Positions 2,807 to 48,898 of a stretch of 64,000 nt of DNA are shown here, one piece after another. The notes under the pieces were generated by a model. The model was not told the origin of the DNA and searched no databases. It saw only the letters and a list, made by a program, of their open reading frames with translations. The position numbers and the translations under genes are program-made. Within the stretch, counting starts at the first letter, position 1. The number at the start of each line of letters is the position of its first letter. Source of the stretch: Aeromicrobium flavum (lineage in GTDB: Bacteria > Actinomycetota > Actinomycetes > Propionibacteriales > Nocardioidaceae). The DNA lies in the NCBI RefSeq assembly GCF_007992115.1, contig NZ_BJZQ01000004.1, forward strand, positions 1-64,000, given 5' to 3'.

Positions 2807-4021
2807 TCAGCCGACGAACGTCAGCCACAGCAGCACGACGTTGAGCGCGACGATGGCCGACGCGGCCAGCGCCGCCAGGGCGGTGGTGAGTCGCCGGTTG
2901 ACGTACTCCCCCATCACCGTCGACGACGAGGTGAGCCACACCAGCGGCACGACCGCGAACGGGATCCCCATCGACAGGACCACCTGGGACACGACCAGCG
3001 CCCGGGTGGGATCGATGCCCGCCAGCAGGATCGCGAGCGCCGGGACCAGCGTGATCATCCGGCGCACCACGGGCGTCAGGTTCCACGGCGTGAGGCTGCG
3101 CATCACCTCGGCGCCGGCGGCGCTGCCGACCGAGGTGGACGAAATGCCCGAGCCCAGCAGCGCCACGGCGAACAGCAACGCGACACCGGCACCGATCTCG
3201 CTGCCGATCAGGTCGTGGGCGCCGGCGATCGTGTCGGTGCCCGGCATCCCCTGCAGGTTCGCGGCGGCCATCAGCAGCAGCCCCAGGTTCAGCACCCCGG
3301 CCAGGATCAGCGCGAGGACGACGTCGGTGCGCGTGGCCGCCAGCAGCTCGCGCACGGACGTGTGCTCGCCGCGCCGGCCGAGCCGGTCGGCCGTGAGGCT
3401 CGAGTGCAGGTAGACCGCGTGCGGCATCACCGTCGCCCCGACGATGCCCGAGGCCAGCAGCACGCTCTCGGCACCGTCGAACCGCGGCACCAACCCGCCC
3501 GCGACGCCGCCGGCCGACGGGGGCCCGACCACCAGCCCGGCCAGGAAGCCCACCGCGATCAGCAGCAGGAAGCCGACGATGACGCGCTCGAGCGTCCCCT
3601 GACCCCGGCGGTCGCCGATCATCAGCACGAGCATCGCGACGACGGCGGTCAGGACCGCGCCCAGCGGCAGCGGCAGGTCGAACAGCAGCTGGAACGCGAT
3701 CGCGCCGCCGATCACCTCGGCCAGGTCGGTCGCGATCGCGATGCCCTCGGCCTGCAACCAGTAGGCGAAGCGTGCTCTCGTCGGGATGCGCCCGCCCACC
3801 TGGGCCGCGAGCGACCGGCGCGTGACGAGGCCGAGCTTGGCCGAGAGGTACTGGATCAGCACGGCCATCAGGTTGGCCAGCACGATGACCCAGACGAGCG
3901 TGTACCCGAACTGCGCCCCGGCGGTCAGGTTGGTGGCGACGTTGCCGGGGTCGACGTACGCGACAGCCGCGATGAACGCCGGGCCCAGCAGGACGACGCG
4001 GCGGCGGAGCGCGTGCGTCAC
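2807..4021 (-). CDS. mntH: Nramp family divalent metal (Mn/Fe) transporter
   Basis: Proton-coupled Mn2+/Fe2+ importer of the inner membrane, about 404 residues and 11 transmembrane segments. The metal-site motif DPGN is in the first helix (VAYVDPGNVAT) and the MPH motif in helix 6 (TVMPHAVYLHS), both intact. The GTG at 4021 overlaps the stop of the upstream acetyltransferase-like gene by four bases (GTGA). The longer open frame upstream is the shadow of that gene. Conservation begins right after this start. Confidence 0.88.
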   Translation of the reverse strand: MTHALRRRVVLLGPAFIAAVAYVDPGNVATNLTAGAQFGYTLVWVIVLANLMAVLIQYLSAKLGLVTRRSLAAQVGGRIPTRARFAYWLQAEGIAIATDLAEVIGGAIAFQLLFDLPLPLGAVLTAVVAMLVLMIGDRRGQGTLERVIVGFLLLIAVGFLAGLVVGPPSAGGVAGGLVPRFDGAESVLLASGIVGATVMPHAVYLHSSLTADRLGRRGEHTSVRELLAATRTDVVLALILAGVLNLGLLLMAAANLQGMPGTDTIAGAHDLIGSEIGAGVALLFAVALLGSGISSTSVGSAAGAEVMRSLTPWNLTPVVRRMITLVPALAILLAGIDPTRALVVSQVVLSMGIPFAVVPLVWLTSSSTVMGEYVNRRLTTALAALAASAIVALNVVLLWLTFVG

Positions 4022-4299
4022 CCGGCCAGCAGGTCCTGGTACTCGGGGTGCTTCTCGATGTAGTGCTTGACGTAGCTGCAGGTCGCGCGGACCTTCTTGC
4101 CCTGCGAGCGGACGTCGTCGAGCGCGTGGGCCACGAGCTGGCTCGCCAGGCCCTGGCCCTCGAACCGCTCGTCGATCACGGTGTGGGGGAAGACGACGAC
4201 GTCGCCCTCGACCCGGGCCTCGGTGTGCCCGGCCGTCTCGCCGTCGACCGCGATCTCGTACTGCCCATCCGCCTCGTGGTGCGTGATTTCGACCGTCAT
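4018..4299 (-). CDS. Small GNAT-like N-acetyltransferase (Acetyltransf_CG type)
   Basis: A 93-residue protein of the short GCN5-related family related to YjdJ. It has the acetyl-CoA loop segment ERFEGQGLASQLV and the following CSYVKHYIEKHPEY that is typical of the family. The substrate is unknown. The ATG at 4299 is preferred over a GTG six codons upstream because homologous sequence starts there and a CAGGGT hexamer lies six bases before it. The stop overlaps the start of the metal transporter, so the two are co-translated. Confidence 0.8.
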   Translation of the reverse strand: MTVEITHHEADGQYEIAVDGETAGHTEARVEGDVVVFPHTVIDERFEGQGLASQLVAHALDDVRSQGKKVRATCSYVKHYIEKHPEYQDLLAG

Positions 4300-4426: not shown

Positions 4427-5989
4427 TCAGTCGATCTCGCGCTTGAGGATCTTGCCCGTGGCCGTCATCGGCAGCGCGTCGCGGAACTCGACGATGCGCG
4501 GGTACTTGTACTGCGCGAACTGGCCCTTGGCCCACTCACGCAGCTCGGCCTCGGTGGTGGCGTCGTCGGCGTTCTTGACGACCACGGCCTTGATCTCCTC
4601 ACCGTGGGACTCGTGCGGGACGCCGATGACCGCGACCAGCGAGACCGCGGGGTGCGTCATCAGCACCTCCTCGAGCTCACGCGGGTACACGTTGTAGCCG
4701 CCGCGGATGATCATGTCCTTGCTGCGGTCGACGATGTAGAAGTAGTCGTCGTCGTCCTTGCGGGCGAGGTCGCCCGTGCGGAACCACTCGTCCCGGATCG
4801 CCTCCGCGGTGGCGGCGGGGCGGTTGTAGTAGCCCTTCATGATGCCGTGGCCCTTGATGGCGATCTCGCCGATCGCCTCGGGGTCGTGCGGCACGTCGCT
4901 CCAGTCGTCGTTGATGAGCTTCATCTCGACGCCCTCGACGGCGCGACCGATCGAGCCGACCCGGACGGGCTCGCCGCGCACGCCGAACGAGGCCACCGGC
5001 GACGTCTCCGACAGGCCGTAGCCCTCCTGGATGACGATGCCGAACTTCTCCTCGAACTGGCGGTGGATGTCGGCCGGCAGGGCGGCGCCGCCGGATGCGG
5101 CGACGCGCATGTTCTTGGCGATCGACTCGACGTCGACGCCGCCGTCGGACGCCGCGAGCGCCTGCAGCAGGCCCCAGTACATCGTGGGGACGCCGGCGAA
5201 GAAGGTGATCTTCTCCTTCAGCAGCAGCGACATGGCCGCGTCGGGCTCGAAGCGCGGGAGGTAGACGATCGTGCCGCCGTAGAGGACGGCGCTGTTCTGG
5301 ATGACCGTCTGGCCGAAGATGTGGAACAGCGGCAGGACGGCCAGGTAGGTGTCGGGGTCCTCCTCGGACGCGCCGAACAGCGAGACGCCCAGGCCGGCGT
5401 TGGCGAGCAGGTTGCGGTGCATGAGCTCGGCGCCCTTGGGCTGGCCCGTGGTGCCCGACGTGTAGAGGATGACGGCGGTGTCGTCGTCGTCGCGCTCGAC
5501 CGTGGTGAACTGCGGCGACTGCTGGGCGACCAGCGGGCCGTAGTACTCCGGGGGCTCCATCGGCTCCGGCGCGGCCGAGTCGAGCTTGATCAGGAAGAAC
5601 TCCTTGCAGCCCTCGACCTCGTTGAAGCCGGCCCAGGCGCGGTCGCCGATCGGCAGGTCGGGCGTGCCCTCGAACGCGATGAACGCGACGGCGTCGGAGT
5701 CGTCCAGGTGGTAGGCGACCTCGCGCTCGGACAGCAGGACGTTCAGCGGGACGACCGCGGCGCCGGCCTTGAGGATGCCGAAGTAGGCGATCGTGAAGTA
5801 GGGCAGGTTCGGGATCGAGATCGCGACCTTGTCACCGGGCTTGATGCCGCGCGAGACGAGCAGGTTGGCCACCTGGTTGGCCGCGCCGTTGAGCTGGGCG
5901 TAGTTCAGGCGCGTGTCGCCGAAGACGATGGCGGTGCGCTCGGGGTACTTCGCGGTCGTGTCGTCGAGGATCGCGGCGAGGTTGGTCAC
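4427..5989 (-). CDS. Long-chain fatty acid--CoA ligase (AMP-forming)
   Basis: ATP-dependent acyl-adenylate/acyl-CoA synthetase of 520 residues, cytoplasmic or membrane-associated. The P-loop-like motif YTSGTTGQPKG is at about 176-186, followed by GYGLSET, RTGDLA and the C-terminal catalytic lysine motif (ATGKILKRE) at the very end. This is FadD-type organisation; the exact chain length cannot be told. The gene stands alone between hairpins. Upstream is a perfect palindrome that overlaps its likely promoter, so expression is probably repressor-controlled. A GGAAAG ribosome site precedes ATG 5989. Confidence 0.88.
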   Translation of the reverse strand: MTNLAAILDDTTAKYPERTAIVFGDTRLNYAQLNGAANQVANLLVSRGIKPGDKVAISIPNLPYFTIAYFGILKAGAAVVPLNVLLSEREVAYHLDDSDAVAFIAFEGTPDLPIGDRAWAGFNEVEGCKEFFLIKLDSAAPEPMEPPEYYGPLVAQQSPQFTTVERDDDDTAVILYTSGTTGQPKGAELMHRNLLANAGLGVSLFGASEEDPDTYLAVLPLFHIFGQTVIQNSAVLYGGTIVYLPRFEPDAAMSLLLKEKITFFAGVPTMYWGLLQALAASDGGVDVESIAKNMRVAASGGAALPADIHRQFEEKFGIVIQEGYGLSETSPVASFGVRGEPVRVGSIGRAVEGVEMKLINDDWSDVPHDPEAIGEIAIKGHGIMKGYYNRPAATAEAIRDEWFRTGDLARKDDDDYFYIVDRSKDMIIRGGYNVYPRELEEVLMTHPAVSLVAVIGVPHESHGEEIKAVVVKNADDATTEAELREWAKGQFAQYKYPRIVEFRDALPMTATGKILKREID

Positions 5990-6067: not shown

Positions 6068-6763
6068 TCAGCAGCCGTCGCGCATCAGGCTCGGCTTGTC
6101 GCCCTCGGTCACCTCGACCATCGTGATCCGCGCGCCGTCGGAGAGCCGCTCGGGATTCTCGTCGAAGAGGAAGCCGATCCACCGGCTCCCCTCCCTCACG
6201 AACAGCCCGGTCTGGGAGTAGCCCGCCTCCTCCGGGTCCGACAGGGCGGTGCCGTAGGCGCGCCGCAGGAATCCGTAGCTGTTGCCGACCGAGATGCCCT
6301 GCGCGGTCTCGGCGCCGTCCTTGCGCATGCCCAGCGAGGCGATCGTGCCGTCCGGGCGCACCTGGAGGTCGAAGCCGTCCGCCAGGTCGCCGGCCCAGAC
6401 GTACCGCGTGCCCTCACAGACCTTGCCGCTGTCGTCACGCTCGACCAGGCCGGTGGCCACGGCGTCGTCGACCGGCGTGCCGACCAAGATCGGCTCGATG
6501 GCCCCGGGCACGACGTCGCCGATAGCCAGTGCCTCGCCGTCCGGGCCGATGGGGTCGGCCGGCGACCAGGAGGGGCCCCGGCGGTCGCTGCGAGCGGCCT
6601 GGAGGTCGCTGCCCTTGGTCGGCGCCGTGGTGGGTGCGGACGTCGCGTCCTCTCGGACGGCGGCCGAGGCCGGGCGGGCGTCCCACTGGCGCGCGGTGAA
6701 GCCGGCGCCGATGCCGGCCACGACACTGGCGGCGACGAGTGCGGCTGCGATCTTGCGGTTCAT
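6068..6763 (-). CDS. Exported or membrane-anchored protein of unknown function
   Basis: The 231-residue product has a signal peptide or signal anchor (hydrophobic about 5-24, then ARPASA), a Thr/Ala-rich linker to about residue 55, and a globular domain with two Cys residues (in KVCEGT and at the C-terminal RDGC). I see no known enzyme motif. It follows the sigma factor gene on the same strand after 76 bp. It lacks the HxxxCxxC signature of zinc anti-sigma factors, so an anti-sigma role is not supported. Confidence 0.65.
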   Translation of the reverse strand: MNRKIAAALVAASVVAGIGAGFTARQWDARPASAAVREDATSAPTTAPTKGSDLQAARSDRRGPSWSPADPIGPDGEALAIGDVVPGAIEPILVGTPVDDAVATGLVERDDSGKVCEGTRYVWAGDLADGFDLQVRPDGTIASLGMRKDGAETAQGISVGNSYGFLRRAYGTALSDPEEAGYSQTGLFVREGSRWIGFLFDENPERLSDGARITMVEVTEGDKPSLMRDGC

Positions 6764-6839
6764 GGTGTCCTCACCGACCGCCGCCCTGGCGGTCTCACTC
6801 TCCTGATGCCGCCGGCACCCGGAAAGTTGTCCCGAGTTC

Positions 6840-7376
6840 TCATCCGGCCGACAGCCGGTCGCGCAGGAACCCCCGAGCCGTGTGGATCCGCGCCTTCACC
6901 GTGCCCAGCGGCACGGCGAGGATCGTCGCGATCTCGTCGTACGTCAACCCGCCGAGATCGCGCATGACCAGCGCGTCGACCGTCTCACGATGCCTGACCT
7001 CGAGTGCCTCGATCGCGTCCAGCAGGTCCAACCGCGTGCCCGCCATCACGCTCGTGCGCGCCGGATCGGCCGCCTCGGGCACCGCGTCCAGGCCGCGCTC
7101 GTCGAACCGCCGCTTCAGCGTCCGGTAGGTCATCCGCGCCTGGTTGGTCGCGATCATGCCGGCCCAGGCCTCGAAGGCGCCGCGGCCGGACCACGAGTCG
7201 AGCTTCGTGGCGATGGCCAGCAGGGCGTCCTGGGTGGCCTCCTCGGCGTCCTGCGGATGAGGCAGGATCCGCCGGCAGCGGCGCAGCACGAGCGGCCGCA
7301 CCTGCCCCAGCAGCGCCTCGAGGGCCGCGCGATCACCGGATCGCGCGCGGTCGACGAGGGGTGTCTCGACGTCCAC
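6840..7376 (-). CDS. ECF-type RNA polymerase sigma-70 family factor
   Basis: Sigma-70 family protein of about 178 residues with only region 2 (about 5-85, PQDAEEATQDALLAIA) and region 4 (about 115-175, MRDLGGLTYDEIATILAVP helix-turn-helix), the ECF layout. I place the start at GTG 7376, which has an AGGAGG ribosome site just upstream. The frame continues further but would run into the divergent kinase gene. Only 28 bp separate the two starts. No anti-sigma gene is adjacent, and the divergent protein kinase is the obvious partner candidate. Confidence 0.85.
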   Translation of the reverse strand: MDVETPLVDRARSGDRAALEALLGQVRPLVLRRCRRILPHPQDAEEATQDALLAIATKLDSWSGRGAFEAWAGMIATNQARMTYRTLKRRFDERGLDAVPEAADPARTSVMAGTRLDLLDAIEALEVRHRETVDALVMRDLGGLTYDEIATILAVPLGTVKARIHTARGFLRDRLSAG

Positions 7377-7404
7377 CGTCCCTCCTGACCCGATACTGGT
7401 TCCG

Positions 7405-8256
7405 ATGCGACAGATCGGACGGTACCGGCTCGACTCCGTGCACGGGGTCGGAGCCTTCGCGACGGTGTGGCGCGGGTACGACCCCGAGTTCGACGTCGAG
7501 GTCGCCGTCAAGGTGCTGGCCGACAACTGGGCCCACCACGCCGACGTCCGCGAGCGGTTCCTCGAGGAGGCCCGGCTGCTGCGCCGGATCGACGACGCCC
7601 GGGTCGTGCGCGTGCACGACGTCGGCGTCCAGGACGACCGGCCCTACTTCGTCATGGACTTCGTGCCGGGCGGGACCCTGGCCGACCGGGTCGGACACGT
7701 CAGCGTGGAGGAGGCGATCGCGGCGGCGGTCGCGGCGTGTCACGCGGTCCAGGCGCTGCACGACCACGACGTGCTCCACCGCGACGTCAAGCCCTCGAAC
7801 CTGTTGGTGTCGGCCGGCGGCGCGGTCCTGGTCAGCGACCTCGGCAGTGCGAAGCGACTGGCCGAGGCCAGCGGGATCACCGTCACCACCGGCACCCCGG
7901 CCTACATGGCCCCCGAGCAGGCGTACGGACGGCCACTGGACGCGCGCACCGACGTCTACGCACTCGGCGTGCTGACGCACGAGCTGGTCACCGGCCGGCT
8001 GCCCTTCGACGGCCCGCTCGGACGCACCGCGAACGACCGCGTCGCTCCCGCCGGCGCCGGGCCACGGGTCGACGCCGCGCTCGCCGCGGCGCTCGCGGTC
8101 AGGCCCGAGGACCGTCCGGCCTCGGCCGCCGCGCTGGCCGAGCTGCTGGAGTCGACCGAGCACGCACCCCGGTCCTTCGTGTCGCCGTGGCTCGTCGCCC
8201 CGGTCATGGCACTGGCGTTCGTCGTGGCCGCGGTCACGACGTGGTGGCTCGGCTGA
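7405..8256 (+). CDS. Serine/threonine protein kinase with C-terminal membrane anchor
   Basis: A Hanks-type kinase of 283 residues: Gly-rich loop GVGAFATVWRG (about 13-23), Lys in VAVKVL, catalytic loop HRDVKPSN, the Mg site as DLG instead of DFG, then an APEQ motif. The catalytic residues are present, so activity is expected. After the kinase domain comes one transmembrane helix (about 262-283) that ends the protein, so there is no external sensor domain, unlike PknA/PknB. GATACT (7392-7397) seven bases before the ATG suggests a leaderless transcript from the tiny gap shared with the sigma gene. Confidence 0.88.
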   Translation: MRQIGRYRLDSVHGVGAFATVWRGYDPEFDVEVAVKVLADNWAHHADVRERFLEEARLLRRIDDARVVRVHDVGVQDDRPYFVMDFVPGGTLADRVGHVSVEEAIAAAVAACHAVQALHDHDVLHRDVKPSNLLVSAGGAVLVSDLGSAKRLAEASGITVTTGTPAYMAPEQAYGRPLDARTDVYALGVLTHELVTGRLPFDGPLGRTANDRVAPAGAGPRVDAALAAALAVRPEDRPASAAALAELLESTEHAPRSFVSPWLVAPVMALAFVVAAVTTWWLG

Positions 8257-8265
8257 GCCGAGCAG

Positions 8266-9123
8266 TCACCAGGTGAGGCCGGTGAGCCGCTCGTAGGCCT
8301 CGATGTACCGGTCGCGGGTGCGCTCGACGATCTCGTCGGGCAGGCGCGGCGGCGGGGTGTCGGAGGCGCGGTCCCAGCCCGACTCGCCGGTCAGCCAGTC
8401 GCGCACGAACTGCTTGTCGTAGCTGGGCTGCGCCTGCCCGGGCTGGTACCGGTCGGCGGGCCAGAAGCGCGAGGAGTCGGGCGTCAGGACCTCGTCGGCC
8501 AGCACGATCGTGCCGTCCGGCCGCGCGCCGAACTCCAGCTTGGTGTCCGCGAGGATGATGCCGCGCTCGCGGGCGATCTCCTCGGCCCGGCCGTAGACGG
8601 TCAGCGTCAGGTCGCGCAGGCGCTCGGCCATCTCGGCGCCGACGGTCTCGACGACCGCCTCGAACGAGACGTTCTCGTCGTGCTCGCCCAGCTCGGCCTT
8701 CGTCGCCGGGGTGAAGATCGGGGTGTCGAGGCGCGAGGCGTCCACCAGGCCGTCGGGCAGCGGGATGCCGCAGACCGCGCCGGTCTCGCGGTAGTCGACC
8801 AGGCCCGACCCGGTCAGGTAGCCGCGCGCCACGCACTCGACGGGGAACATGTCGAGCCGCTCGACGACCAGCGCGCGTCCCGCGACCACGGCCGGGACGT
8901 CGGTGCTGACCACGTGGTGCGGCACCAGGTCGGCCAGCTGGTCGAACCACCACAGGCTCATCCGGGTGAGGATCTCGCCCTTGTCGGGGATCCCGGGCTC
9001 GAGGATGAAGTCGTAGGCACTCACGCGGTCGGACGCGACCATCAGCAGGTCGTCGCCGTACGTGTACAGGTCGCGCACCTTGCCCGAGTGCAGGTGGGTG
9101 GCTCCGGGGATCTCCAGCGGCAT
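8266..9123 (-). CDS. purC: Phosphoribosylaminoimidazole-succinocarboxamide synthase
   Basis: SAICAR synthase joins CAIR and aspartate with ATP in de novo purine synthesis. The 285 residues show the family landmarks SGKVRDLY (about 13-20), [11 protein letters not shown], the [11 protein letters not shown] loop and [15 protein letters not shown] (9130-9135, complement) ends six bases before the ATG, consistent with a leaderless mRNA. The closest purine genes are purB and purD further along the window, so the pathway is clustered loosely rather than in one operon. Confidence 0.95.
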
Positions 9124-14851: not shown

Positions 14852-15403
14852 CTAGCGAGCGCCGTCGCCGCCCGGTCCATCCGCGGCCGCCCGATCGCGC
14901 GCCACGAGGGCCAGGGCGCTCCACGGCCGCGGCTCGTCGCCGCCGGTGAGGAAGCTGCCCCACGTCAGCGGCAGGTCCTGCGGCAGGCTCAGCTCGTCGA
15001 ACGCCCGGCTCCACCCGCCCAGCAGGCCGGCGTCGTACCGGCCGGACGCGAGCAGGAACGACGTGACGGCCGAGACGGTGGCCCGCCGGTCGGCGTCCTC
15101 GTCGCGCAGGAGGCCGGCCAGGTCGGCGCCGAACCGCTCCGCGTCGAACTCGGGCCAGGACGCCGCCGCGTGCAGGCCGTCGCGGAGCAGCTCCGGGAGG
15201 CGGTCCCAGCCGACGACGTCGTCCCGGGACGGCTCCGACATCGCGGTGGACACCGCCACCACGACACCGCGCGCACCGATGCCGCTGAAGAGGCCCGCCA
15301 TCGCCTCGGGTCGCGAGCACTGGCGCTCGAGGACGAGCAGGAGCCGCGTCAGGCCCGCGGAGTCCTCGCGCGTGGGCGGCTCGGTCATGAGCGAGTCGGT
15401 CAT
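14852..15403 (-). CDS. Protein of unknown function in the purD-purA cluster
   Basis: About 183 residues with no domain that I recognise, acidic overall, predicted cytosolic, with helical segments and no membrane spans. ATG 15403 lies 7 bp after the stop of the upstream gene on the same strand, so it is probably the last gene of a three-gene unit (with 15411-16154 and 16159-17121). The open frame upstream of this start is a shadow of the neighbour. A partner or immunity role is only a guess from position. Confidence 0.6.
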   Translation of the reverse strand: MTDSLMTEPPTREDSAGLTRLLLVLERQCSRPEAMAGLFSGIGARGVVVAVSTAMSEPSRDDVVGWDRLPELLRDGLHAAASWPEFDAERFGADLAGLLRDEDADRRATVSAVTSFLLASGRYDAGLLGGWSRAFDELSLPQDLPLTWGSFLTGGDEPRPWSALALVARDRAAADGPGGDGAR

Positions 15404-15410
15404 CGGCCGG

Positions 15411-16154
15411 TCATTCGTCCGTGTGGGTGTTGCGCCCGGTGACCACGTCACCGAGGACCGTGAGGACGGCGTCCAGGTCGAGCGGCACGAGCGTGACGTC
15501 GACCGGCTCGGCCCCGTGGCGCGGCGGGTGGTCGACGCGGTACCAACCCTGGGTGCCGGCGTCGACGATCGTGACGCTCGCGTCGATCGGGCGCTGGGCC
15601 CAGTTGCCGTTGGCCCGCCACGCGAGGCGCCAGTTCGCGATGACCTCGTCCAGGGCGTCGACACCGGTGGCCTCGACACCGCGCGCCGAGACGGCCGCGT
15701 CGATCACGGTGGTGTCGGTGCTGAGGGTCTGGCGGTCGTCGGCGACCTCACGCTCGAAGATGCCCAGCCACTGGCGCAGCTGGTCGCGCAACAGGCCGAA
15801 CTCGGTGGCCGTCACGACGACGGCACCCTCGGCGTCCGGGGCACTCGTGGTGGCGCGTCCGTCGGGCAGCCAGCCGATGAACATCGGCGACAGGGTCGAC
15901 CCGTCGAACCGCTCGACCACGACCGAGCGGGCCGGCGCCACGGCGACCTCGACGAGACCCGCGGCCGTGGGGTTCAGGCCCGCGGGACCGACGAGCCCCG
16001 CCTCGCGCAGGCGACCGGGCACGTCGCCGGGGGCGGTGGCGCCGGCGTGGACCTCCGCCAGCAGCAGGAGGTCGTCGTAGCCGACCGTCAGTTGCAGGAA
16101 GGTCTCGTCGAGATGAGGCACAGCAGCTCCAGTCTTGGCAGTGTCGTCGTTCAT
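15411..16154 (-). CDS. Unknown protein, remotely EspG-like
   Basis: The 247-residue soluble protein has the mixed helix/strand pattern of EspG, the ESX secretion chaperone: an opening strand, helical VPGRLREAGLV, then paired strands and LRDQLRQWLGIF. The resemblance is weak and I found no defining motif. It starts 4 bp after the stop of the upstream gene, whose product has a helical N-terminus like type VII secretion substrates, which is what makes the chaperone idea worth stating. No ESX membrane genes are in the window. Confidence 0.5.
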   Translation of the reverse strand: MNDDTAKTGAAVPHLDETFLQLTVGYDDLLLLAEVHAGATAPGDVPGRLREAGLVGPAGLNPTAAGLVEVAVAPARSVVVERFDGSTLSPMFIGWLPDGRATTSAPDAEGAVVVTATEFGLLRDQLRQWLGIFEREVADDRQTLSTDTTVIDAAVSARGVEATGVDALDEVIANWRLAWRANGNWAQRPIDASVTIVDAGTQGWYRVDHPPRHGAEPVDVTLVPLDLDAVLTVLGDVVTGRNTHTDE

Positions 16155-16158
16155 CGGA

Positions 16159-17121
16159 TCACCACGGGGTGACCTTGTCCCAGGCCTTCGAGGCCGCCTC
16201 CCCGAGGTCGGACGCCCGCTCGCTGATGTCGTCCCAGTTGTCGACGACCTCGGCGCCCGCCCAGACCAGCCCGCTGCCCACGGCGAGGGTGGCGGTCACA
16301 GGGTTCGGCGCGATGAGGAACGCGGTGCTGGAGGCGCTGAACGCGGTCTCGGCGACGTCCGCGACGTACCCGGCACCCTCACGCTCGAACGCCTCGACCG
16401 GATTGCCCTGCTGGTAGAGGTCGTACGCACCCATGCCGGTACTCGCGACGCCGCCCACGATGCCCAGCCCGCGCATGGCGGCGAGGCCGCCCTTGGCCCC
16501 CTTCGCCAGCGGGTCGGCCCAGCCGGCGGCGGGCATCTTGCCCTTGACGAACGACCCGTCGGGGAGGGTCTTGCCGACCATCCACTTCGGTGCCTTGAGC
16601 AGCGACTTCGGAGGAGCCTGGTGCTTCGCTCCGCCGGAGAGCATCCACTCGGCCCACTTCCCCGCGCGGCCGCCGCGAGCCATCAGCTTCTCGTACATCT
16701 TGATGTTGAGCTTGCTGGTCTGGGCGATCGGTGCGACGCCCTGGCTGATCTTCTTCATCTTCATCAGGCCCGTGGCCACGGCGATCAGGGGGAAGTCGTC
16801 GTCGTCGCCGAAGCCGAAGTTGTTGCCGAACTCGGCCAGCAGGTACGAGCCCAGCAGCTCGCCGAGCTTGTCGCGGACGTCCGCCACGGGCAGGTCGACC
16901 TGCCCCGAGTCGTCCAACAGCACGGCGAGGTCGGCCAGCCCGTACAGGACGTCGGCCTGCTCCTCCAGGTACGTGGCCTTCTGCTCGATCCCCTCCAGGC
17001 TGGGCAGCGCGATCGGACTCGCGCTGCGCGCCGCGGTCGCCTGCGTGCGGATCGAGGACGCGAGGCCCTCCGCCCGCCCGGCAGCGCGGGTCAGCTTCGT
17101 GTAGTCGAGTTCAACGGTCAT
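16159..17121 (-). CDS. Possible type VII-secreted or membrane-acting protein
   Basis: About 320 residues. Residues 1-95 are a predicted helical hairpin starting TVELDYTKLTRAAGRAEGL, comparable to WXG/LXG secretion domains, but with no clear W-X-G. The middle (about 100-215) is basic and Lys-rich. Residues about 220-300 are Gly/Ala-rich and hydrophobic (GLGIVGGVASTGMGAYDLY, LIAPNPVTATLAVGSGLVW), like membrane-inserting regions of some polymorphic toxins. ATG 17121 has a GGGGGAGC ribosome site. I cannot name the family. It heads the three-gene unit. Confidence 0.55.
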   Translation of the reverse strand: MTVELDYTKLTRAAGRAEGLASSIRTQATAARSASPIALPSLEGIEQKATYLEEQADVLYGLADLAVLLDDSGQVDLPVADVRDKLGELLGSYLLAEFGNNFGFGDDDDFPLIAVATGLMKMKKISQGVAPIAQTSKLNIKMYEKLMARGGRAGKWAEWMLSGGAKHQAPPKSLLKAPKWMVGKTLPDGSFVKGKMPAAGWADPLAKGAKGGLAAMRGLGIVGGVASTGMGAYDLYQQGNPVEAFEREGAGYVADVAETAFSASSTAFLIAPNPVTATLAVGSGLVWAGAEVVDNWDDISERASDLGEAASKAWDKVTPW

Positions 17122-17284
17122 CGCAGCAGCTCCCCCATCACCGAACCAGCACACCAGGTGCTCACGCCGGGTCCCCTCGGCCCGGGCGCGGAGTCACCAC
17201 CGACGTGATGCCCCGGGAACGAATAGTGCCACGTCAACTGCCGGGGCGCCGCAGTCTGCGTGCACCGTGCCTCGGGGCGCGGCG

Positions 17285-17812
17285 TCACCAGGACTGCTTC
17301 TGGCTCATCACCATCCACAGGGCGATGTGCTCGGGCCTCGTGTCGCGGGCGACGCGCGGCGCGATGATGTCGTACTCGCGCACGAACGACCACTCCGCCA
17401 CCGCCATGTTGATCGGCGACGCCCAGCGGCGTGAGCTCACCAGGGTGCCGGCGTCGCAGCGCAGCGTCAGCAGCGTGGGCAGCGCCCGGTTCGTGAAGTG
17501 CATGCCCGGCAGGACGAACGAGGGGTCGCCGGTGATCTCGTGCCGTTGCCGGCGCAGCAGGCCCACGGGGCCGTTCGGGACGCTGGACACCGTGGCGACC
17601 TGACGTCCGTTGAGGGCGATCGGGACCCCGTCGGCGAAGAGGTCGTGGAACCGGCTCTCCTGCTGCTCGCGGACGGGCCGGCGGTCGGTGATGTCCATCG
17701 TCACCGTCACGTCGCCGATCGTGGCGTCGATCGCATCGCGGCGCCGCGCGATGTGCACCGGTCCCCACCGGGTCCAGCGGAAGAACCGCTGCGTGTGGCT
17801 CACCTCGGTCAC
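17285..17812 (-). CDS. Conserved-looking protein of unknown function
   Basis: A 175-residue soluble protein, beta-rich by appearance, basic at the N-terminus (FFRWTRWGPVHIARRRDAID) and ending WMVMSQKQSW. I see no signal peptide, membrane span or motif. It lies 163 bp upstream of the 16159-17121 gene on the same strand, and 25 bp after it (on the plus coordinate) comes the end of purA, which is also on the minus strand, so it could be transcribed from purA. Its role is unknown. Confidence 0.55.
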   Translation of the reverse strand: MTEVSHTQRFFRWTRWGPVHIARRRDAIDATIGDVTVTMDITDRRPVREQQESRFHDLFADGVPIALNGRQVATVSSVPNGPVGLLRRQRHEITGDPSFVLPGMHFTNRALPTLLTLRCDAGTLVSSRRWASPINMAVAEWSFVREYDIIAPRVARDTRPEHIALWMVMSQKQSW

Positions 17813-19121: not shown

Positions 19122-19148
19122 GCGATGCCACCCCTCCACCAGACGGAA

Positions 19149-19183
19149 AGCCCCGCAACGGGGGCTCTTGCCCGTCAATCCTA
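19149..19183 (-). promoter_or_regulatory. purA promoter and leader hairpin (possible attenuator)
   Basis: On the minus strand a TAGGAT -10 (complement 19178-19183) is followed after about 12 bases by a hairpin with 6-bp AGCCCC/GGGGCT arms (19149-19154 and 19161-19166) and a short T-run. This lies within the purA leader and could act as an attenuator. No leader peptide is obvious. Confidence 0.4.
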
Positions 19184-19268: not shown

Positions 19269-19333
19269 CGTGATGGACGTCACGCCAAAGTGCAGTAGCC
19301 TCCATGCAACTGCTCGTGTAACGGTGAGTTGCA
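19269..19333 (+). promoter_or_regulatory. CRP/GlxR-like site, -10 and leader hairpin before the acyltransferase operon
   Basis: CGTGA-N6-TCACG (19269-19284) has the exact symmetry and spacing of CRP/GlxR sites. TAGCCT (19296-19301) is the likely -10, which puts the site centre near -31, overlapping the -35. Just after the start point TGCAACT (19305-19311) and AGTTGCA (19327-19333) are perfect inverted repeats that could form a leader hairpin or a second operator. Confidence 0.45.
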
Positions 19334-19376
19334 ACACTCCCCCCGGGCACCATCCGGCGGCCGAAGGAGGACCCCC

Positions 19377-20768
19377 ATGCATCCCCACCGTCTGACACTC
19401 GTCCCAGCGGGCGATGTCCATCTGTGGGTGCCGCGGTCCTCGACCCTGCGCGCGTTCGCGACGACCGCGCCCGATCCCCGACCCGTGACCCCTGACCAGG
19501 AGCGACGGCTCGAGGTGGCCGGTGTGCCGCGCCAGCCCGAGGACGAGGTCAACCCGTGGATCGGCCTGCGCGCCACCTTGCACGGCGCCGACTTCGTCTC
19601 GTTCGCCGGCACCCTGCGCCGCTTCTGCGCCCGCCACGAGAGCCTGCGCTGCATGTTCGTGCGGCGTGAGGACGGCAGCTTCGAGCGCCGCATCATCGAC
19701 CCCGAGTTGATCGGCTTCCAGCCCCGGCACCTGGGTACCTTCGACGACCGCGGCGAGACGTTCGACGCCGTCATGGCCGAGCTCGACGACCGCACCGGCC
19801 CCCTGTCGTGGCCCGCGGCGACCGTCCTCACCGTCACCGAGCCGAACGGCGACATCACCGTGTTCGCGGCGTTCGACCACGTGACGTTCGACGGCTACAG
19901 CGCGTACCTGACGATGGGCGAGCTCAAGCAGCACCTCGAGGCCGAGATCAACCACGCGCCGCTGCCGGCCCCGGTCGGCAGCTACGTCGACTTCGCCGTC
20001 GACCAGCGCGCGGCCCAGGACGCCATCAGCCCCGACTCCCCGGCGCTCGAGCCGTGGCGCCGCGCGGCCGACGTCTCGGGCAACCTCCCCGGGCTGCCGC
20101 GCGCCACGGGCGTGCGTCGTGGTGACGAGATCCGCCACCGGCTCCGCTTCCCCACCTTCGCCGGGCCGCGGCTGAGCCAGGCGTTCGAGGACTGGTGCCA
20201 CCAGCACCGCGTGCCCCAGCCGCTGGCCTACACCGCCGTCCTGCTGCGCGCGATGGTGGCCGAGGAGGACGACGCCGCCATCACCGTGTTGATGTCGACG
20301 CACAACCGCACCCGGCCCGAGTGGCACGAGGCCATCGGCTGGTTCTCCGGAATCGTCCCGATGACCGTCGACGTGGGGCGTGACCTGCCGCTGCTCGAGG
20401 TCATCCGACGGACCGCCGAGGCCTGGCAGTTCGGCAAGACCGCCGAGACCGTCCCGCTGCCGCTGGCCAACCAGCTGCTCGGCACCTCGATGCGCCCGGC
20501 CACCGTCCTGTCGTTCATGGACTCGCGCCACGTGCCCGGCCGCGACGGCTGGGAGGAGATGGACTCCACCGTCTTCCTCGGCGAGGTCGAGCCCAGCGAC
20601 GAGATGCACATCTACATCAACGCGATGCCCTACGGCATGGAGCTGGCGCACCGCGCGCCCGACACCGCCCCGTGCACCGAGTTCCTCGACCGCGTCATGG
20701 GACGCATGCGCGAGCAGATGACCGCCGTCACCCGGCAGGTCAACGACCCGATGGAGGCCCTGGCATGA
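19377..20768 (+). CDS. Condensation-domain (PapA-like) acyltransferase, first of a pair
   Basis: A 463-residue stand-alone member of the chloramphenicol acetyltransferase-like superfamily (NRPS condensation domain / polyketide-associated acyltransferase). The catalytic motif HxxxDG is intact at about 168-173 ([10 protein letters not shown]). An N-terminal region with RHESLR (as in FxxLVxRHexLR) and a C-terminal lobe with an [10 protein letters not shown] segment complete the fold. Such enzymes transfer acyl groups from a thioester to an alcohol or amine. No carrier protein is nearby. ATG 19377 has a strong GAAGGAGG site. It overlaps the next gene by ATGA. Confidence 0.75.
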
Positions 20769-22165
20769 GGATGGCGCGGATCGAGGAGCTCGAGACGATC
20801 GACGGCGAGGTGTTCCTGCTCCGTCCGTCCGACGAGTCCCGCAGCGCCCTGGCCGCGGCGCCGGCCAACGACCAGCGCCCGTCGTACATGCAGGACCAGC
20901 ACGTCCGGCTGCGCCGCGCGATGGAGCGCGCCGGATCCGCCGACGCGAACTGGCTGGGCCTGTGCTTCGACGTGCCCGGCACCCTCGACGTCGACGCGCT
21001 TCAGCGCGCCGCCACGCGGTGGGTGCAGCGCCACGAGGTCATGTGGGGCACGTTCCGTGACAACCCCGAGGACCCCAACGGCGAGATGACCCGCCACGCC
21101 ATCGCCCCGGAGCAGCTGACCCTGTCGGTCACGCCGCTGGGCATGCACTCGGGCGACGGGGTCAACCAGGTGATCCTGAAGCAGTTCACCGACGCCGTCG
21201 ACCCGATCGACAACTTCGGCTACGCGATCGCCGGCGTGTCCGGCACCGACCGCTCGACGATCTTCTGCGGCCTCGACCACTGTTACGGCGACGGGTTCAG
21301 CGTGCTGCTGGCGTACATGGAGCTCTCGCAGCTGTACGCCGCCGAGACGGGCCGCCCCCACACCGAGCTGCCCGAGACCAAGGGCTACATGACCTACGCC
21401 CAGGAGGAGCGCGCCGACGCCCAGCAGTACGGGATCGACCACCCGGCGATGCAGTTCTGGGCCGACTACGCGATGGACGGCGCCGGCCAGAAGGACGGCT
21501 TCCCGATGGACCTCGGGATCCCCGAGGGCGAGCGGTTCTGGCTCATCCCGATGGACTACGACATCCTCACCGGCGAGGAGTGCGACCGCCTCGACGAGAT
21601 CGCCGCCGCCGAGGGCGCCACGTTCCCGTCGGTGATCTACGCGTCGTTCGCCATGGCCGCACGCGACCTGGCCGGCAAGAGCGCGTACCGCTTCCTCAAC
21701 CCCGTGGCCACGCGCACCACGCCCGAGACCCTCACCACGATGGGCTGGATGGTCAACGTCCTGCCCATCCACATCCCGGTCGGTCCCGGCGACGGGCTCT
21801 TCGAGATCGCCCGCGGCGTGCGGCAGAAGTTCCGCGACGCCCGGGTGTGCGAGCCGGTGCCCGCCCTGCGCGTCATGGAGGTCATCCGCGAGGTGTTCGG
21901 GTTCTCGCCCGACGACGCCAGCCGGCCGGCGATCGTGTCCTACCTCGACGGCCGCATGATCCCCGGCCAGGAGCAGTGGGCGGCCGACCGGTTCTACGGC
22001 ACCACGGGCCAGGGGTACGACGAGGACGTCAACGTCTGGATCAACCGCACGCCCACCGATCTGTACGTGATGTGCAGCGTTCCGCAGACCCCCACGGCCG
22101 TCGAGAACGTCGACCGCTTCTTCACGCACGCGTCGGCGATCCTGCGCGAGGCGCTGAACCGGTAG
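20765..22165 (+). CDS. Condensation-domain (PapA-like) acyltransferase, second of a pair
   Basis: The 466-residue paralogue of the preceding protein keeps the HxxxDG motif at about 172-177 ([10 protein letters not shown]) and the [10 protein letters not shown] segment at about 88-97. It shares the overall length and the YLDGRMIPG region (compare [10 protein letters not shown]) near the C-terminus. ATG 20765 overlaps the upstream stop (ATGA), so the two are translated together. Two different acylations of one molecule, or a heterodimer, would fit. There is no AMP-ligase, ketosynthase or carrier gene beside it, so the acyl donor must come from elsewhere, for example acyl-CoA. Confidence 0.75.
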
Positions 22166-22174
22166 CGTCGGGGC

Positions 22175-23050
22175 GTGGACTCATGGCTCGCGGTCAGTAA
22201 TGCGGATGCAGGAACCTCCGACGAGACCGTGATCGCCGAGGCGCTCGGCGCCCTGCGCCGGGTCGCCCACGTCGACCACGTCGCCACGGAGGATCCCGAC
22301 GACCTCGGTCGCGCCCTCGCCCGGCATCCCGACGTCGACCTCGTGATCGCGATGGGCGGCGACGGCAGCCTCCACGCGGTCGTGCAGGCGCTCCACGACG
22401 CCGGTCGACTGCCGGACACGGCCGTGGGCCTCGTGCCGCTGGGCACCGGCAACGACTTCGCGCGCACGCTCGAGCTGGCGGAGGACCCCGTCGACGCCGC
22501 CCGCCAGCTCGCGGTCGGCACCGAGCGCGCCATCGACCTCATCGTCGACGACCACGGCATCGTGGTCGTCAACGCCGCGCACGTCGGGATCGGGGCCGAG
22601 GCCGCGGCCCGGGCGGAGCCGGTCAAGTGGGCCTTCGGCCCCCTGGCGTACGTGCTCGGGGCGGTGTCCACCCTGTTCAGCCGCAGCGCCGACGTGCACG
22701 TCACGATCGACGACGCCACCCTCAGCGGACGCGTCGCCCAGGTCGCCGTCGGCAACGGACGGTTCGTGGGTGGCGGTGGCGAGCTGCTGCCGCACGCCGT
22801 GATCGACGACGGCCTCATGGACGTCGCCGTCGCCTTCGCCGCGCGCGTGCACCAGCGCGTCCTCTACGCCCTGCACCTGCGGCGCGGCACGCACCCCGAG
22901 GCGAAGTTCGTCCACTACACCCGGGCGACGTCCGTGCGGGTCGTCGGCGATGCCGTCCGGTGCACCACCGACGGCGAGCTGACCGAGCTGCGCACCGAGC
23001 ACGCGTGGAAGGTCACGGCCGGCGGCCTGCGGATGCGCCTGCCCCGCTGA
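22175..23050 (+). CDS. Diacylglycerol kinase-like lipid kinase
   Basis: A 291-residue member of the DAGK catalytic-domain family (YegS/DgkB-like): nucleotide motif GGDGSLHAVV at about 59-68, then PLGTGNDFART, and a C-terminal beta domain with GGGGELLPHAVIDDGLMDV. It phosphorylates a lipid hydroxyl using ATP. It lies 9 bp after the two acyltransferases on the same strand. TAGCGT (22163-22168) begins on the stop codon of the upstream gene and ends six bases before GTG 22175, so the gene may also have its own leaderless promoter. Confidence 0.85.
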   Translation: MDSWLAVSNADAGTSDETVIAEALGALRRVAHVDHVATEDPDDLGRALARHPDVDLVIAMGGDGSLHAVVQALHDAGRLPDTAVGLVPLGTGNDFARTLELAEDPVDAARQLAVGTERAIDLIVDDHGIVVVNAAHVGIGAEAAARAEPVKWAFGPLAYVLGAVSTLFSRSADVHVTIDDATLSGRVAQVAVGNGRFVGGGGELLPHAVIDDGLMDVAVAFAARVHQRVLYALHLRRGTHPEAKFVHYTRATSVRVVGDAVRCTTDGELTELRTEHAWKVTAGGLRMRLPR

Positions 23051-43095: not shown

Positions 43096-43428
43096 TCAGT
43101 GGACCAGCTCGTCGATCGAGGTGTGCAGGCCGAAGACCTTGTCCAGGCCGGTGATCGCGAAGATCCGCAGCAGCCGCTCGCTCGTGCAGATGATGTCGAG
43201 CGAGCCGTTGTCGGCGCGGACGCGCTTGAGCGCGCCCACGAGCACACCGAGGCCGGTGGAGTCGAGGAACGCCACGTTCTCGATGTCGATCACGAGCCGG
43301 GTGTGTCCGTCGTCGATCGCACCGACGACGACCTCGCGCAGGCGCGGAGCGGTGTAGACGTCGATCTCCCCCGCGACCTCGACCACGTGGAACGGCGGCG
43401 ACTCACGTTCGGTGAGCGTCAGGTCCAT
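43096..43428 (-). CDS. STAS-domain anti-sigma factor antagonist
   Basis: 110 residues, whole STAS domain, like RsbV, SpoIIAA or BldG. The phosphorylatable serine is in [14 protein letters not shown], flanked as expected. Such proteins bind an RsbW-type anti-sigma kinase when unphosphorylated. No kinase or sigma gene is adjacent. ATG 43428 is preferred to a TTG four codons upstream. It is divergent from the helicase over 84 bp. Confidence 0.87.
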
Positions 43429-43512
43429 GACCGCATTCAATCATCCGTCACCCCGTGTTCCCACTCGAAGACCGTGCGCCACGCCGTCAGGGCGGTGAGG
43501 GAGACTTCCAGC

Positions 43513-45795
43513 ATGGCGTTGCACCCGGCTCTCGCGCGTCACGCCGAGCGACTGGTGCACGTGCAGCACCACCCCGCGGTCGAGCCGGTCGTCGAGACGT
43601 GGCCCGACTGGATCGACCCCGAGGTGCGCGCGCTCTTCGCCGCCGAGGGCGCCGACGTGCTGTGGGGCCACCAGGCCGAGGCGCTGGCCGCCCTGCACGA
43701 ACGCCGCCACGTCGTGGTGGCCACCGGCACGGCCTCGGGCAAGTCGCTCGTCTACCAGGCGGCCGCGCTGCAGGCCCTGCGCGACGGGCGGGGCGGCTCC
43801 GGACTGTCCGGCGCCCGGCGGCCCTCCGTGCTCTACCTCGCGCCCACCAAGGCCCTCGCCGCCGACCAGCTGCGCCGCCTGCCCGTCGACGCCCCCGGTC
43901 TGCGACCGGCCACCGTCGACGGCGACAACAGCCGCGAGCAGCGGGCGTGGGCGCGCGACCACGCGAACTGGGTGCTGGCCAACCCCGACATCCTGCACCG
44001 CACGATCCTGCCGACGCACGAGCGCTGGGCCCGGCTGCTGGCGGGCCTGCGGGTGGTGGTGATCGACGAGTGCCACCACTACCGCGGGGTCTTCGGCGCC
44101 CACGTCGCGCTCATCCTGCGCCGCCTGCAGCGGGTGTGCCGCCACTACGGCGCCGACCCGCTCTTCGTGCTCTCGTCAGCCACGGTGGCCGAGCCTGCCG
44201 CCTCGGCCGAGCGGCTCCTGGGCGCGCCGGTCACCGCCGTGACGGAGGACGCCTCGCCGCACGCTGCCCGCACCGTCGCGTTCTGGCAGCCGCCGCTGCG
44301 CGCCAGCCGTGACGGCGTCGAGGTCCGCCGTGCGGCCGGCTCCGAGGCCGCCGACCTGCTCACCGACCTCGTCGTCGACGGCACCCGGACCCTGGTGTTC
44401 GTTCGCTCGCGCCGCGGGGCCGAGCAGCTGGCGATGACCACCCGGCGGGCGCTGGCCGAGGTGCACCCCGACCTGGTCGAGCGCGTCGCGACCTACCGCG
44501 GCGGCTACCTGCCCGAGGAGCGGCGCGAGCTCGAGGCGCGGCTGCGGTCGGGCGACCTGCTCGGACTGGCCAGCACCAACGCGCTCGAGCTCGGCATCGA
44601 CATCGCGGGCCTCGACGCGGTCGTGTCCGTGGGATTCCCCGGCACGCGCGCGGCCCTCTGGCAGCAGTGGGGCCGCGCCGGGCGGGCCGGCGTCGACAGC
44701 GTGGGCGTGATGATCGCCCGCGACGACCCGCTCGACTCCTTCCTCGTGCACCATCCCGAGGCCGTGCTCGGCGCACCGGTCGAGGCCACGGTCTTCGACC
44801 CCGACAACCCCTACGTGCTGGGTCCGCACCTGGCGGCGGCCGCGCAGGAGCTGCCGCTCACCGAGGCGGACTTCGACCGGTTCGGCCCGCGGGCGGCCGA
44901 GGGAGTGGCCGCCCTCGAGGCCGCCGGGATGCTGCGCCGCCGGGCGTCCGGCTGGTTCTGGACCAGCCGCGAGCGGGCCGCCGACCTGGCCGACATCCGA
45001 TCCGCCGGTGGCCACCCCGTGCAGATCGTCGAGGGCAGCACGGGCCGGCTGGTCGGCACCGTCGACGCCGGGTCGGCGGACGCCGAGGTGCACGAGGGCG
45101 CCATCTACGTCCACCGCGGCGAGGACCACCTCGTCGAGGCCTACGACCCCGAGCAGGGCACGGCGGTCGTCCGCCGTGCGGACGTCCACCACACGACGAG
45201 CGCCCGCACGGCCACGGCGGTGACGATCGTCGAGCAGCGACGCGAGGTCGCGTGGGGTCCGGCGACGATCGCGTTCGGCGACGTCGAGGTGGTCAGCCAG
45301 GTGATCGGCTACCAGGTCCGCGACCGCAGCACGGGTCGCGTCATCGGCGAGGAGCCGCTCGACCTGCCCGAACGCACGCTGCCCACGGCCGCGGTGTGGT
45401 GGACGCTCGACACCGACGTCGCCCTCGGGCTCATGGACCCCGAGCTGCTGCCCGGCGCCGCCCACGCCGCCGAGCACGCGGCGATCGGCATCCTGCCCCT
45501 GCTGGCCACGTGCGACCGGTGGGACATCGGCGGGCTGTCCACGGCCCATCACGTCGACACCGGACGGCTCACCGTGTTCGTGCACGACGGCCACCGCGGG
45601 GGTGCCGGATTCGCCGAGCGCGGCTACGAGCAGATGGCCGCCTGGCTGCGCATGACCCGGCAGACGATCGCCGACTGCGGGTGCCGCGACGGGTGTCCCT
45701 CGTGCGTCGTGTCGCCCAAGTGCGGCAACGGCAACCACCCGCTCGACAAGGCCGGCGCCGTCGTGCTGCTGGACGCGGTGCTGGCCTCGGCCTGA
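43513..45795 (+). CDS. DEAD/DEAH-box helicase with DUF1998 zinc module (MrfA-like)
   Basis: 760-residue superfamily 2 helicase. Motif I ATGTASGKS, motif II DECHHYRG (DECH), motif III SSAT, motif VI QQWGRAGRAG; the C-terminal MrfA-binding / DUF1998 region carries four Cys (CGCRDGCPSCVVSPKCG). B. subtilis MrfA repairs mitomycin damage, and Rv3649 is the mycobacterial homologue next to the Tad genes, the same context as here. GAGACT is six bases before ATG 43513. Confidence 0.9.
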   Translation: MALHPALARHAERLVHVQHHPAVEPVVETWPDWIDPEVRALFAAEGADVLWGHQAEALAALHERRHVVVATGTASGKSLVYQAAALQALRDGRGGSGLSGARRPSVLYLAPTKALAADQLRRLPVDAPGLRPATVDGDNSREQRAWARDHANWVLANPDILHRTILPTHERWARLLAGLRVVVIDECHHYRGVFGAHVALILRRLQRVCRHYGADPLFVLSSATVAEPAASAERLLGAPVTAVTEDASPHAARTVAFWQPPLRASRDGVEVRRAAGSEAADLLTDLVVDGTRTLVFVRSRRGAEQLAMTTRRALAEVHPDLVERVATYRGGYLPEERRELEARLRSGDLLGLASTNALELGIDIAGLDAVVSVGFPGTRAALWQQWGRAGRAGVDSVGVMIARDDPLDSFLVHHPEAVLGAPVEATVFDPDNPYVLGPHLAAAAQELPLTEADFDRFGPRAAEGVAALEAAGMLRRRASGWFWTSRERAADLADIRSAGGHPVQIVEGSTGRLVGTVDAGSADAEVHEGAIYVHRGEDHLVEAYDPEQGTAVVRRADVHHTTSARTATAVTIVEQRREVAWGPATIAFGDVEVVSQVIGYQVRDRSTGRVIGEEPLDLPERTLPTAAVWWTLDTDVALGLMDPELLPGAAHAAEHAAIGILPLLATCDRWDIGGLSTAHHVDTGRLTVFVHDGHRGGAGFAERGYEQMAAWLRMTRQTIADCGCRDGCPSCVVSPKCGNGNHPLDKAGAVVLLDAVLASA

Positions 45796-45884
45796 GTCCC
45801 TCGGCGGCTGGCAGCGGTTGGGAACCCATGCAAGAGTGGACAAGTTTGCACACTGACCACACCTGTCACACGATGGAGGACTTC

Positions 45885-47606: not shown

Positions 47607-47629
47607 GTCCGGGCGCCCCGGCCGGGTCC

Positions 47630-47983
47630 TCACTCGAGGTACCAGGCCGGGGCGGCACGGGCGCGCTGTTCGGACGCCCACCGGCCGATCGTCCACCGCG
47701 GGCCCACCGCCCGCACCGTGACGGTGGCGACGTCGGCGTCCATCCGGCACTCGGCGAGCCGGGCGCCGTTGCGTCGAGCCAGGCGGCGGGCCTCGGCGCA
47801 GGCGTCCTCGCCCTCGACGCTGGCCCGGGACGCCGCGAGTGCCGTCAGGTCGGCTGCGGCCGCCGCCCGCTGACGCAACGACACGGCGAACGCCGCCTGC
47901 AGACAGATGAACGCCACCAGGCAGGTCAGTGCCACGACCGCGAGCGCGTGGACCGTCGCGGACCCGCGAGCACCGCGCCTCAC
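47630..47983 (-). CDS. TadE/G-like pilus assembly protein (Rv3654c type)
   Basis: 117 residues with an N-terminal membrane helix after a basic tag (ATVHALAVVALTCLVAFICLQ), then a small periplasmic domain with two Cys. This matches the TadE-like proteins found beside the helicase and secretion genes in actinobacteria. GTG 47983 overlaps the upstream stop (GTGA). Last gene of the Tad operon. Confidence 0.78.
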   Translation of the reverse strand: MRRGARGSATVHALAVVALTCLVAFICLQAAFAVSLRQRAAAAADLTALAASRASVEGEDACAEARRLARRNGARLAECRMDADVATVTVRAVGPRWTIGRWASEQRARAAPAWYLE

Positions 47984-48521: not shown

Positions 48522-48585
48522 GTCTCCTCCTCGGGGAGTGGCTCGCGCGGCGACCGTTCTCGGCGGACGCCGCGCGAGCTCGGGG

Positions 48586-48780: not shown

Positions 48781-48898
48781 GAGGTGTTCCTCTCTCCGGA
48801 TGATGTGACACCCGAAGATGGGGCTCAGCGGCCTCGAGGTGCGGTGCGCATCCGGGGCTGGGGACAACCGGCACCGCTGGACACGGGCTGGGGAGAAC

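Follow-up and report, generated by a model that had tools for sequence, protein, structure and literature searches.

The question raised by positions 19269 to 23050 of the 64,000-nucleotide stretch of Aeromicrobium flavum DNA analyzed here (contig NZ_BJZQ01000004.1; hereafter, the window) is what two adjacent genes for stand-alone condensation-fold acyltransferases do and whether the lipid kinase gene that follows them takes part. A preliminary description, made from the letters alone, had joined the three genes into one pathway that acylates a polyol twice and phosphorylates it, under the control of a CRP-like site and a leader hairpin. In this study, we have found that the two acyltransferases, AT1 (19377..20768, forward strand, 463 amino acids) and AT2 (20765..22165, forward strand, 466 amino acids), form a conserved unit by themselves, that the kinase is probably an older neighbor and a bystander, and that the region of the hairpin is better read as a predicted operator. 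Our confidence is about evenly balanced on the explanation that we propose, in which AT1-AT2 would be an acyl-CoA-dependent, PapA-like module that places two acyl chains on a hydroxylated acceptor and is switched with the fatty acid supply.

Most of what is known about PapA-type enzymes concerns the virulence lipids of mycobacteria. Both AT1 and AT2 exceeded the gathering cutoff of the Pfam condensation family PF00668 (43.9 and 62.6 bits, respectively, versus 30.6), and each has an intact HxxxDG motif, HVTFDG in AT1 and HCYGDG in AT2, as the preliminary description had reported. The H, D, and G residues did not vary among the sequences that we aligned, seven for AT1 and seven for AT2, and the motifs HVTFDG and HCYSDG are also present in two genomes from another genus of the family (G612 and G622). 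The two enzymes share 26% identity. Among solved structures, PapA2 (6aef) was the closest to AT2, with an E value of 3.6e-35 over residues 14 to 457, or 4.8e-44 when a profile was used; the AT1 profile matched PapA2 over residues 79 to 445 (E value, 4.2e-15). In the PDB sequence matches, PapA2 outranked the condensation (C) domains of nonribosomal peptide synthetases (NRPSs) for both enzymes and was the top match of both profiles; the likeness to PapA proteins, which had been put forward as a point to check, was therefore upheld. The 50 Foldseek matches listed per enzyme all bore titles from the condensation superfamily, and PapA2 ranked first among those of AT2 and third among those of AT1, the query models being of low confidence; since the TM-scores (normalized by query length) were 0.27 to 0.46 among the matches listed, only the fold class is drawn from these models. 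AT2 fell below the cutoff of PRK09294 (11.9 versus 396 bits), and no PapA_C match was reported for the window proteins, the AT2 protein of G612 scoring 26.6 against a cutoff of 30; because the names of both models refer to PapA5 or its reaction, this failure argues against an assignment to PapA5 but not against a PapA2-like enzyme. The ratios of nonsynonymous to synonymous substitution rates, calculated against the window, were 0.15 to 0.24 for AT1 and 0.14 to 0.28 for AT2 (0.05 to 0.14 for purA), and therefore both acyltransferases are under purifying selection. Two observations weigh against the explanation that we propose: in the direct comparison AT1 had PapA2 as its best PDB match but only over residues 141 to 389 (E value, 6e-9), and the AlphaFold structures of the pair are weak, with mean predicted local distance difference test scores of 57.6 and 58.3.

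Of the 49 genus genomes, 6 had close orthologs of the acyltransferases (81 to 91% identity), and that of the window is one of these. In these six species AT1 and AT2 lie in constant order at the purA locus, and the six genomes form one clade, with a support of 1.000, in a 19-row tree built from five joined genes. In the window, the two genes share an ATGA sequence and overlap by 4 nucleotides, which agrees with the translational coupling claimed earlier. More-distant pairs lie elsewhere: in G001, which belongs to the window's genus, between genes for an FtsX-like permease and a Ppx-type protein (AT1, 33% identity; AT2, 42%; overlap, 10 nucleotides), and in G612 and G622 between hisH-like and hisA-like genes (AT1, 36 to 37%; AT2, 46 to 48%; overlap in G612, 4 nucleotides). 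As judged by gene order, AT1-AT2 is thus shown to be a conserved two-gene unit, in which the gene order is retained at three unrelated loci. In a quick tree built from 54 acyltransferase sequences, the G001 copies formed one clade with AT1 and one with AT2 (Shimodaira-Hasegawa-like approximate likelihood ratio test value of 100); G612 and G622 were left out of this tree and were assigned by BLAST scores. That tree came with warnings that count against it, namely, a long G001_AT1 branch of odd composition and the meeting of the long branches of G145 and AT1. Searched more widely, the AT1 profile matched 35 of 341 family genomes at an E value of 1e-15, and across the class, at 1e-20, the AT2 and AT1 profiles matched 60 and 45 of 394 genomes, respectively; the class-wide matches outside the window's clade had far lower scores and look like general PapA-like proteins. 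The locus genes were called by codon usage, which gave some wrong-strand open reading frames (for example, opposite the fatty acid synthase gene in L207), and the low-GC locus L052, for which the caller gave no genes, was read from a list of open reading frames.

The control region of the pair is conserved in the same six species, in which the 240 to 260 bp before AT1 retain a GTGA-N6-TCAC core, the hexamer TAGCCT, and TGTAAC-N-GTGAGTTGCA. The TAGCCT sequence (19296..19301, forward strand) is identical in all six and may be a -10 element. It is followed by the inverted repeat TGTAAC-GGTGA-GTTGCA (19317..19333), which we propose to be the operator of a fatty acid regulator: both half-sites of the form TGYAAC-N5-GTTRCA are identical in the six species, and TGCAAC-N4-GTTGCA, with a spacer of 4, stands upstream of AT1 in G622, where the pair is at another locus. 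The CRP-like palindrome CGTGA-N6-TCACG (19269..19284) is present as the preliminary description stated. It occurs once in the window against 0.25 expected, and by itself it is not beyond chance, since 24 of 100 shuffled sequences contained at least one copy. The site is credible, however, because its core is kept at the same place in all six species that have the pair at purA and because GTGA-N6-TCAC occurs 57 times in the whole genome, versus 10 times for the reversed pattern; the genome also encodes one protein with a Crp-type helix-turn-helix domain over the cutoff and three weaker matches under it. TGA-N6-TCA was absent from the gap upstream of purA in 11 loci that lack the acyltransferases and from the 159 to 218 bp read upstream of AT1 in G612, G622, and G001; since it was not found upstream of the pair in the latter three genomes, the CRP-like site belongs to the window's clade.

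The inverted repeat recurs beyond the acyltransferase promoter. When TGCAACTNNNNGTTACA was sought with at most one mismatch in 14 chosen genomes, 58 matches were obtained, versus 9 for the reversed pattern, and these represented 50 distinct places; a search for the repeat with spacers of 4 and 5 in 11 genomes gave 29 matches, versus 6. By our labels, 41 of the 50 places coincide with or adjoin lipid genes: AT1 (6 places), a DUF6801/mce operon (7), the 3' side of a desaturase gene (6), a ferredoxin reductase-desaturase (2), type I fatty acid synthase (FAS-I) (4), a wax ester synthase/diacylglycerol acyltransferase (WS/DGAT)-like protein (5), a secretory lipase (4), a pair of acyl-CoA dehydrogenase genes beside a deformylase-like gene (5), a PETase-like hydrolase (1), and a MaoC-acyl-CoA dehydrogenase locus (1). 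A strict count, which subtracts the 5 WS/DGAT-like places and the 6 places 3' of the desaturase gene, leaves 30 of 50. Profiles were used to check some of the target names, and the others are based on synteny or likeness. The full FAS-I gene was read, with a Pfam check, in G006 (L203), and FAS-I was inferred from an adjacent short-chain dehydrogenase/reductase gene in G047, G040, and G048. Genes for MceG and YrbE were seen at the mce places in G006, G000, and G041; in G017, G040, G047, and G048 only a DUF6801-type gene after an EcfT-like gene was seen. On the 3' side of the desaturase gene, the site was followed by a DUF6801 gene in G006, G017, and G040, whereas none was seen in G000, G041, and G047. 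The WS/DGAT-like label is based on one protein that scored 18.3 bits against a Pfam cutoff of 23.6 and on two others that had no Pfam match at an E value of 0.01 and were 65% and 42% identical to the first. Because this rare leader repeat is also found at FAS-I, mce, desaturase, acyl-CoA dehydrogenase, lipase, and WS/DGAT-like genes, the assignment of the pair to a predicted fatty acid regulon, co-regulated with the supply of acyl-CoA, is supported.

Several points weigh against this assignment. The reversed pattern equaled the TGCAACTNNNNGTTACA count in G017, G026, and G036; in the search with spacers of 4 and 5, it equaled the count in G622 and exceeded it in G048. The lipid labels were assigned after the matches were known, and 9 of the 50 places are off lipid genes: 5 are motif-like repeats that coincide with or just follow the 3' end of the same gene for an ATP-binding cassette (ABC) ATPase, in five genomes (L228 to L231 and L189), and the other 4 are in G048, G044, G046, and G612, one in each. 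The desaturase need not be under the control of the repeat at the 6 places where the site is 3' of the gene. Since the pattern was drawn from the acyltransferase promoter and the first matches, the acyltransferase sites are not independent evidence, whereas the other targets are. The window's own genome has 5 places; lipid genes account for 4 of these, counting adjacent genes, and FAS-I has none. Upstream of AT1, G612 carries a variant of the repeat and G001 no more than a weak half. Two TetR-type proteins may be considered candidates for the regulator on the basis of gene position, one encoded beside the desaturase gene (in G000:C1, at 3512 to 4144), with FabR as its best NCBIfam match, and the other beside a thiolase gene next to FAS-I; both scored under the NCBIfam cutoffs, the FabR match included. 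Two TetR genes near the sites were also under the FasR cutoff (36.4 and 41.5 versus 330), no genome-wide search for a FasR ortholog having been made. As a separate observation, positions 986 to 1873 of the window encode a DUF6801 protein with an immunoglobulin-like domain whose family is shared with proteins at the mce and desaturase repeat loci.

The third gene of the locus (22175..23050, forward strand, GTG start) encodes, as claimed, a kinase of the diacylglycerol kinase (DAGK) type, with DAGK_cat and YegS_C domains in Pfam and a TIGR00147 score of 127.4 against a cutoff of 118.65; it is an ordinary member of the YegS/Rv2252/BmrU lipid kinases and is apparently unrelated to the pair. The suggestion that AT1, AT2, and the kinase jointly make a diacylated, phosphorylated lipid draws on their common strand, on the 9 nucleotides between AT2 and the kinase gene, and on their occurrence together in the 6 of 49 genus genomes; in addition, readthrough from the acyltransferase promoter into the kinase gene is plausible. 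We consider it highly improbable, however. A relative of the kinase is present in 116 of 118 genomes searched, and among 13 loci that lack the acyltransferases, purA and the kinase gene are back to back in 7 (including G053 and G068, from other genera of the family) and separated by two genes in 5, purA being off the piece in the remaining 1. In 16 of 19 loci, whether or not the pair is present, a TANNNT box precedes the kinase start and ends 6 to 10 nucleotides from it, a spacing that is the layout of a predicted leaderless promoter; the box is absent at the called start in L048, L049, and L050. In the species that have the acyltransferases, the AT2 stop codon (TAG or TAA) provides the TA of this box, which in the window reads TAGCGT (22163..22168, forward strand), and in the sister genome G048, which lacks the pair, the same box is kept with about 120 nucleotides between purA and the kinase gene. 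The doubling of the AT2 stop as a -10-like box may be left from an insertion next to a promoter that was already there. In G001, G612, and G622, no gene for a kinase was seen next to the pair. Loss of the trio's joint conservation had been named beforehand as grounds for abandoning a common pathway, and outside one clade the three genes are not kept together. The trio was rejected as a pathway on the grounds of synteny and of the kinase's own -10-like box, and the preliminary description, which was right about the pair and the CRP-like site, was very probably wrong about the kinase.

Of the readings that concern the pair and its leader, one would make AT1 and AT2 amide- or ester-forming C domains that use a distant carrier protein in the manner of an NRPS and not acyl-CoA. 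It is true that Pfam and NCBIfam assign both enzymes to the condensation superfamily, close to NRPS C domains, and that the stand-alone C domain SgcC5 (4znm) was among the structure and sequence matches; however, PapA2 and not an NRPS C domain is the best solved match, and the repeat ties the pair to acyl-CoA genes. Moreover, the window's own genome (99.99% complete) has three condensation-family matches, namely, AT1, AT2, and one more stand-alone protein (C1:67023, with HAHVDM in place of HxxxDG), and thus it has no NRPS bearing a C domain. We regard this reading as unlikely. The view that the inverted repeat acts as an RNA leader hairpin and not as a DNA operator, which we hold to be rather unlikely, can point to its position 34 to 44 nucleotides before the start codon, in the probable 5' untranslated region, and to its spacer, 4 in G622 and 5 elsewhere. 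The hairpin of the preliminary description, TGCAACT ... AGTTGCA (19305..19333, forward strand), does fold, but with a z score of -0.54, 54 of 200 shuffled sequences fold as well, and G041 does not retain its 5' arm; no Rfam match exceeded the gathering score (two were below threshold), and the same dyad is found at other lipid genes at varying distances from the start. The hairpin was accordingly rejected as an RNA element. It is also quite unlikely that one of the two acyltransferases is catalytic and the other a partner subunit. Strict pairing and the gene overlap do suggest a complex, and relatives of AT1 without the motif glycine, with no AT2 seen beside them, are found in G298, G578, and G551 (L157, L158, and L159); the invariance of the histidine, aspartate, and glycine in AT1 and AT2 alike across the seven aligned genomes stands against it. 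These AT1 relatives lie amid genes similar to those at 43096 to 55174 of the window, which are Tad pilus-like.

An acyl-CoA-dependent pair may be compared with known PapA systems. PapA2 adds a palmitoyl or stearoyl chain, and PapA1 a second chain, to trehalose 2-sulfate (PMC4183827). The condensation fold, the near-full-length match of AT2, and the presence of two acyltransferases (whose sequential action would be assumed here) are shared; in contrast, no polyketide synthase (PKS), sulfotransferase, or MmpL protein was recognized beside the pair, the organism belongs to another bacterial order, AT1 is much more distant, and PapA2 has HLCVDP where AT2 has HCYGDG. The same source describes PapA3 as a single enzyme that sequentially acylates two trehalose hydroxyls in diacyltrehalose synthesis (PMC4183827); there one enzyme performs both steps, whereas here there are two genes, and this likeness is one of description. 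A marine Rhodococcus glycolipid producer has a cluster of four papA genes on one contig, with a proposed role in trehalose acylation (PMC8396431). Compared with the two-gene module here, three-gene arrays in G005, G039, and G007 look closer to it. In these arrays (L054, L055, and L056, and also L160 to L164), three tandem PapA-like enzymes mostly have the motifs HxxxDA/HxxxDG/HxxxDA and are accompanied by two WS/DGAT-like proteins, ABC transporter genes, and sometimes a glycosyltransferase-like gene; three of the WS/DGAT-like proteins had no Pfam match. Named by reading, these arrays are possible glycolipid clusters.

The repeat also has described counterparts. KstR is a TetR-type protein that controls lipid genes through TnnAACnnGTTnnA (PMC1995591). 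Its half-sites, TNNAAC and GTTNNA, match the repeat here, and yet the spacer is 2 there and 5 here, and FAS-I, desaturase, and lipase genes are among the places where the repeat stands here; because of the spacer, the repeat is not the KstR operator TnnAACnnGTTnnA as described. Mycobacterial FasR is an acyl-CoA-sensing TetR protein that acts at the FAS-I promoter through three inverted repeats (PMC7382501, PMC7652896). An inverted repeat is found at FAS-I genes here too, a likeness of description.

The window is from a high-GC contig (69 to 76% GC in 4-kb steps). Nineteen other window proteins, encoded between 4427 and 31447, were checked for domains, 8 and 10 by Pfam and purA by NCBIfam, with some genes in 6068 to 9123 left out. 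No PKS or carrier domain was reported for these 19, in line with the stated absence of a carrier protein and ketosynthase from the vicinity. The accompanying statement that no adenylation domain is nearby is correct for about 13 kb but not farther out, where an AMP-binding acyl-CoA ligase of the FadD type is encoded at 4427 to 5989. No PKS, FadD, MmpL, or sulfotransferase was found among the window neighbors given to Pfam within about 10 kb of the pair, and no linkage to such genes was recognized at the his and ppx loci, as judged by reading with few genes checked; two ABC exporters lie 3 to 9 kb from the pair in G612. A GC-rich hairpin, AGCCCCG...CGGGGCT, is located at 19140 to 19180, upstream of purA, and is recognizable in the purA upstream gaps read. 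Between purA and purD are four genes without a Pfam match (14852 to 17812), two of which are duplicated in G017 and G041.

In the mechanism that we propose for the AT1-AT2 module, acyl-CoA, made by FAS-I or imported, would be the acyl donor for both enzymes, and AT1 and AT2 would acylate hydroxyls of a small acceptor in turn, by analogy with PapA2 and then PapA1. The product would be a diacylated envelope or storage lipid; trehalose as the acceptor is a guess from knowledge of the family. In one clade, the CRP-like site may add to the inverted repeat in the control region of the pair. A more tentative extension, which we consider possible but doubtful, is that this module of Nocardioidaceae, present at three loci, produces a previously undescribed diacylated lipid and that one operator places it in an acyl-CoA-sensing regulon, an arrangement by which excess acyl chains would be deposited on a polyol. 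The pair is not described in the titles or abstract openings that a search for Aeromicrobium and acyltransferases listed; the operator sequence itself was not searched.

The enzymes are of a known kind; it is the pair and its regulatory setting that look new. If the extended proposal is correct, acyl chains would be stored on a polyol at times of fatty acid abundance, with FAS-I, mce import, the desaturase, lipases, and WS/DGAT-like proteins in the same regulon. A stripped-down pair outside the mycobacteria, with no PKS or MmpL protein recognized beside it, would be a simple place to learn how PapA-type enzymes function, and the repeat offers a testable handle on the coupling of fatty acid synthesis, import, and storage in this lineage.

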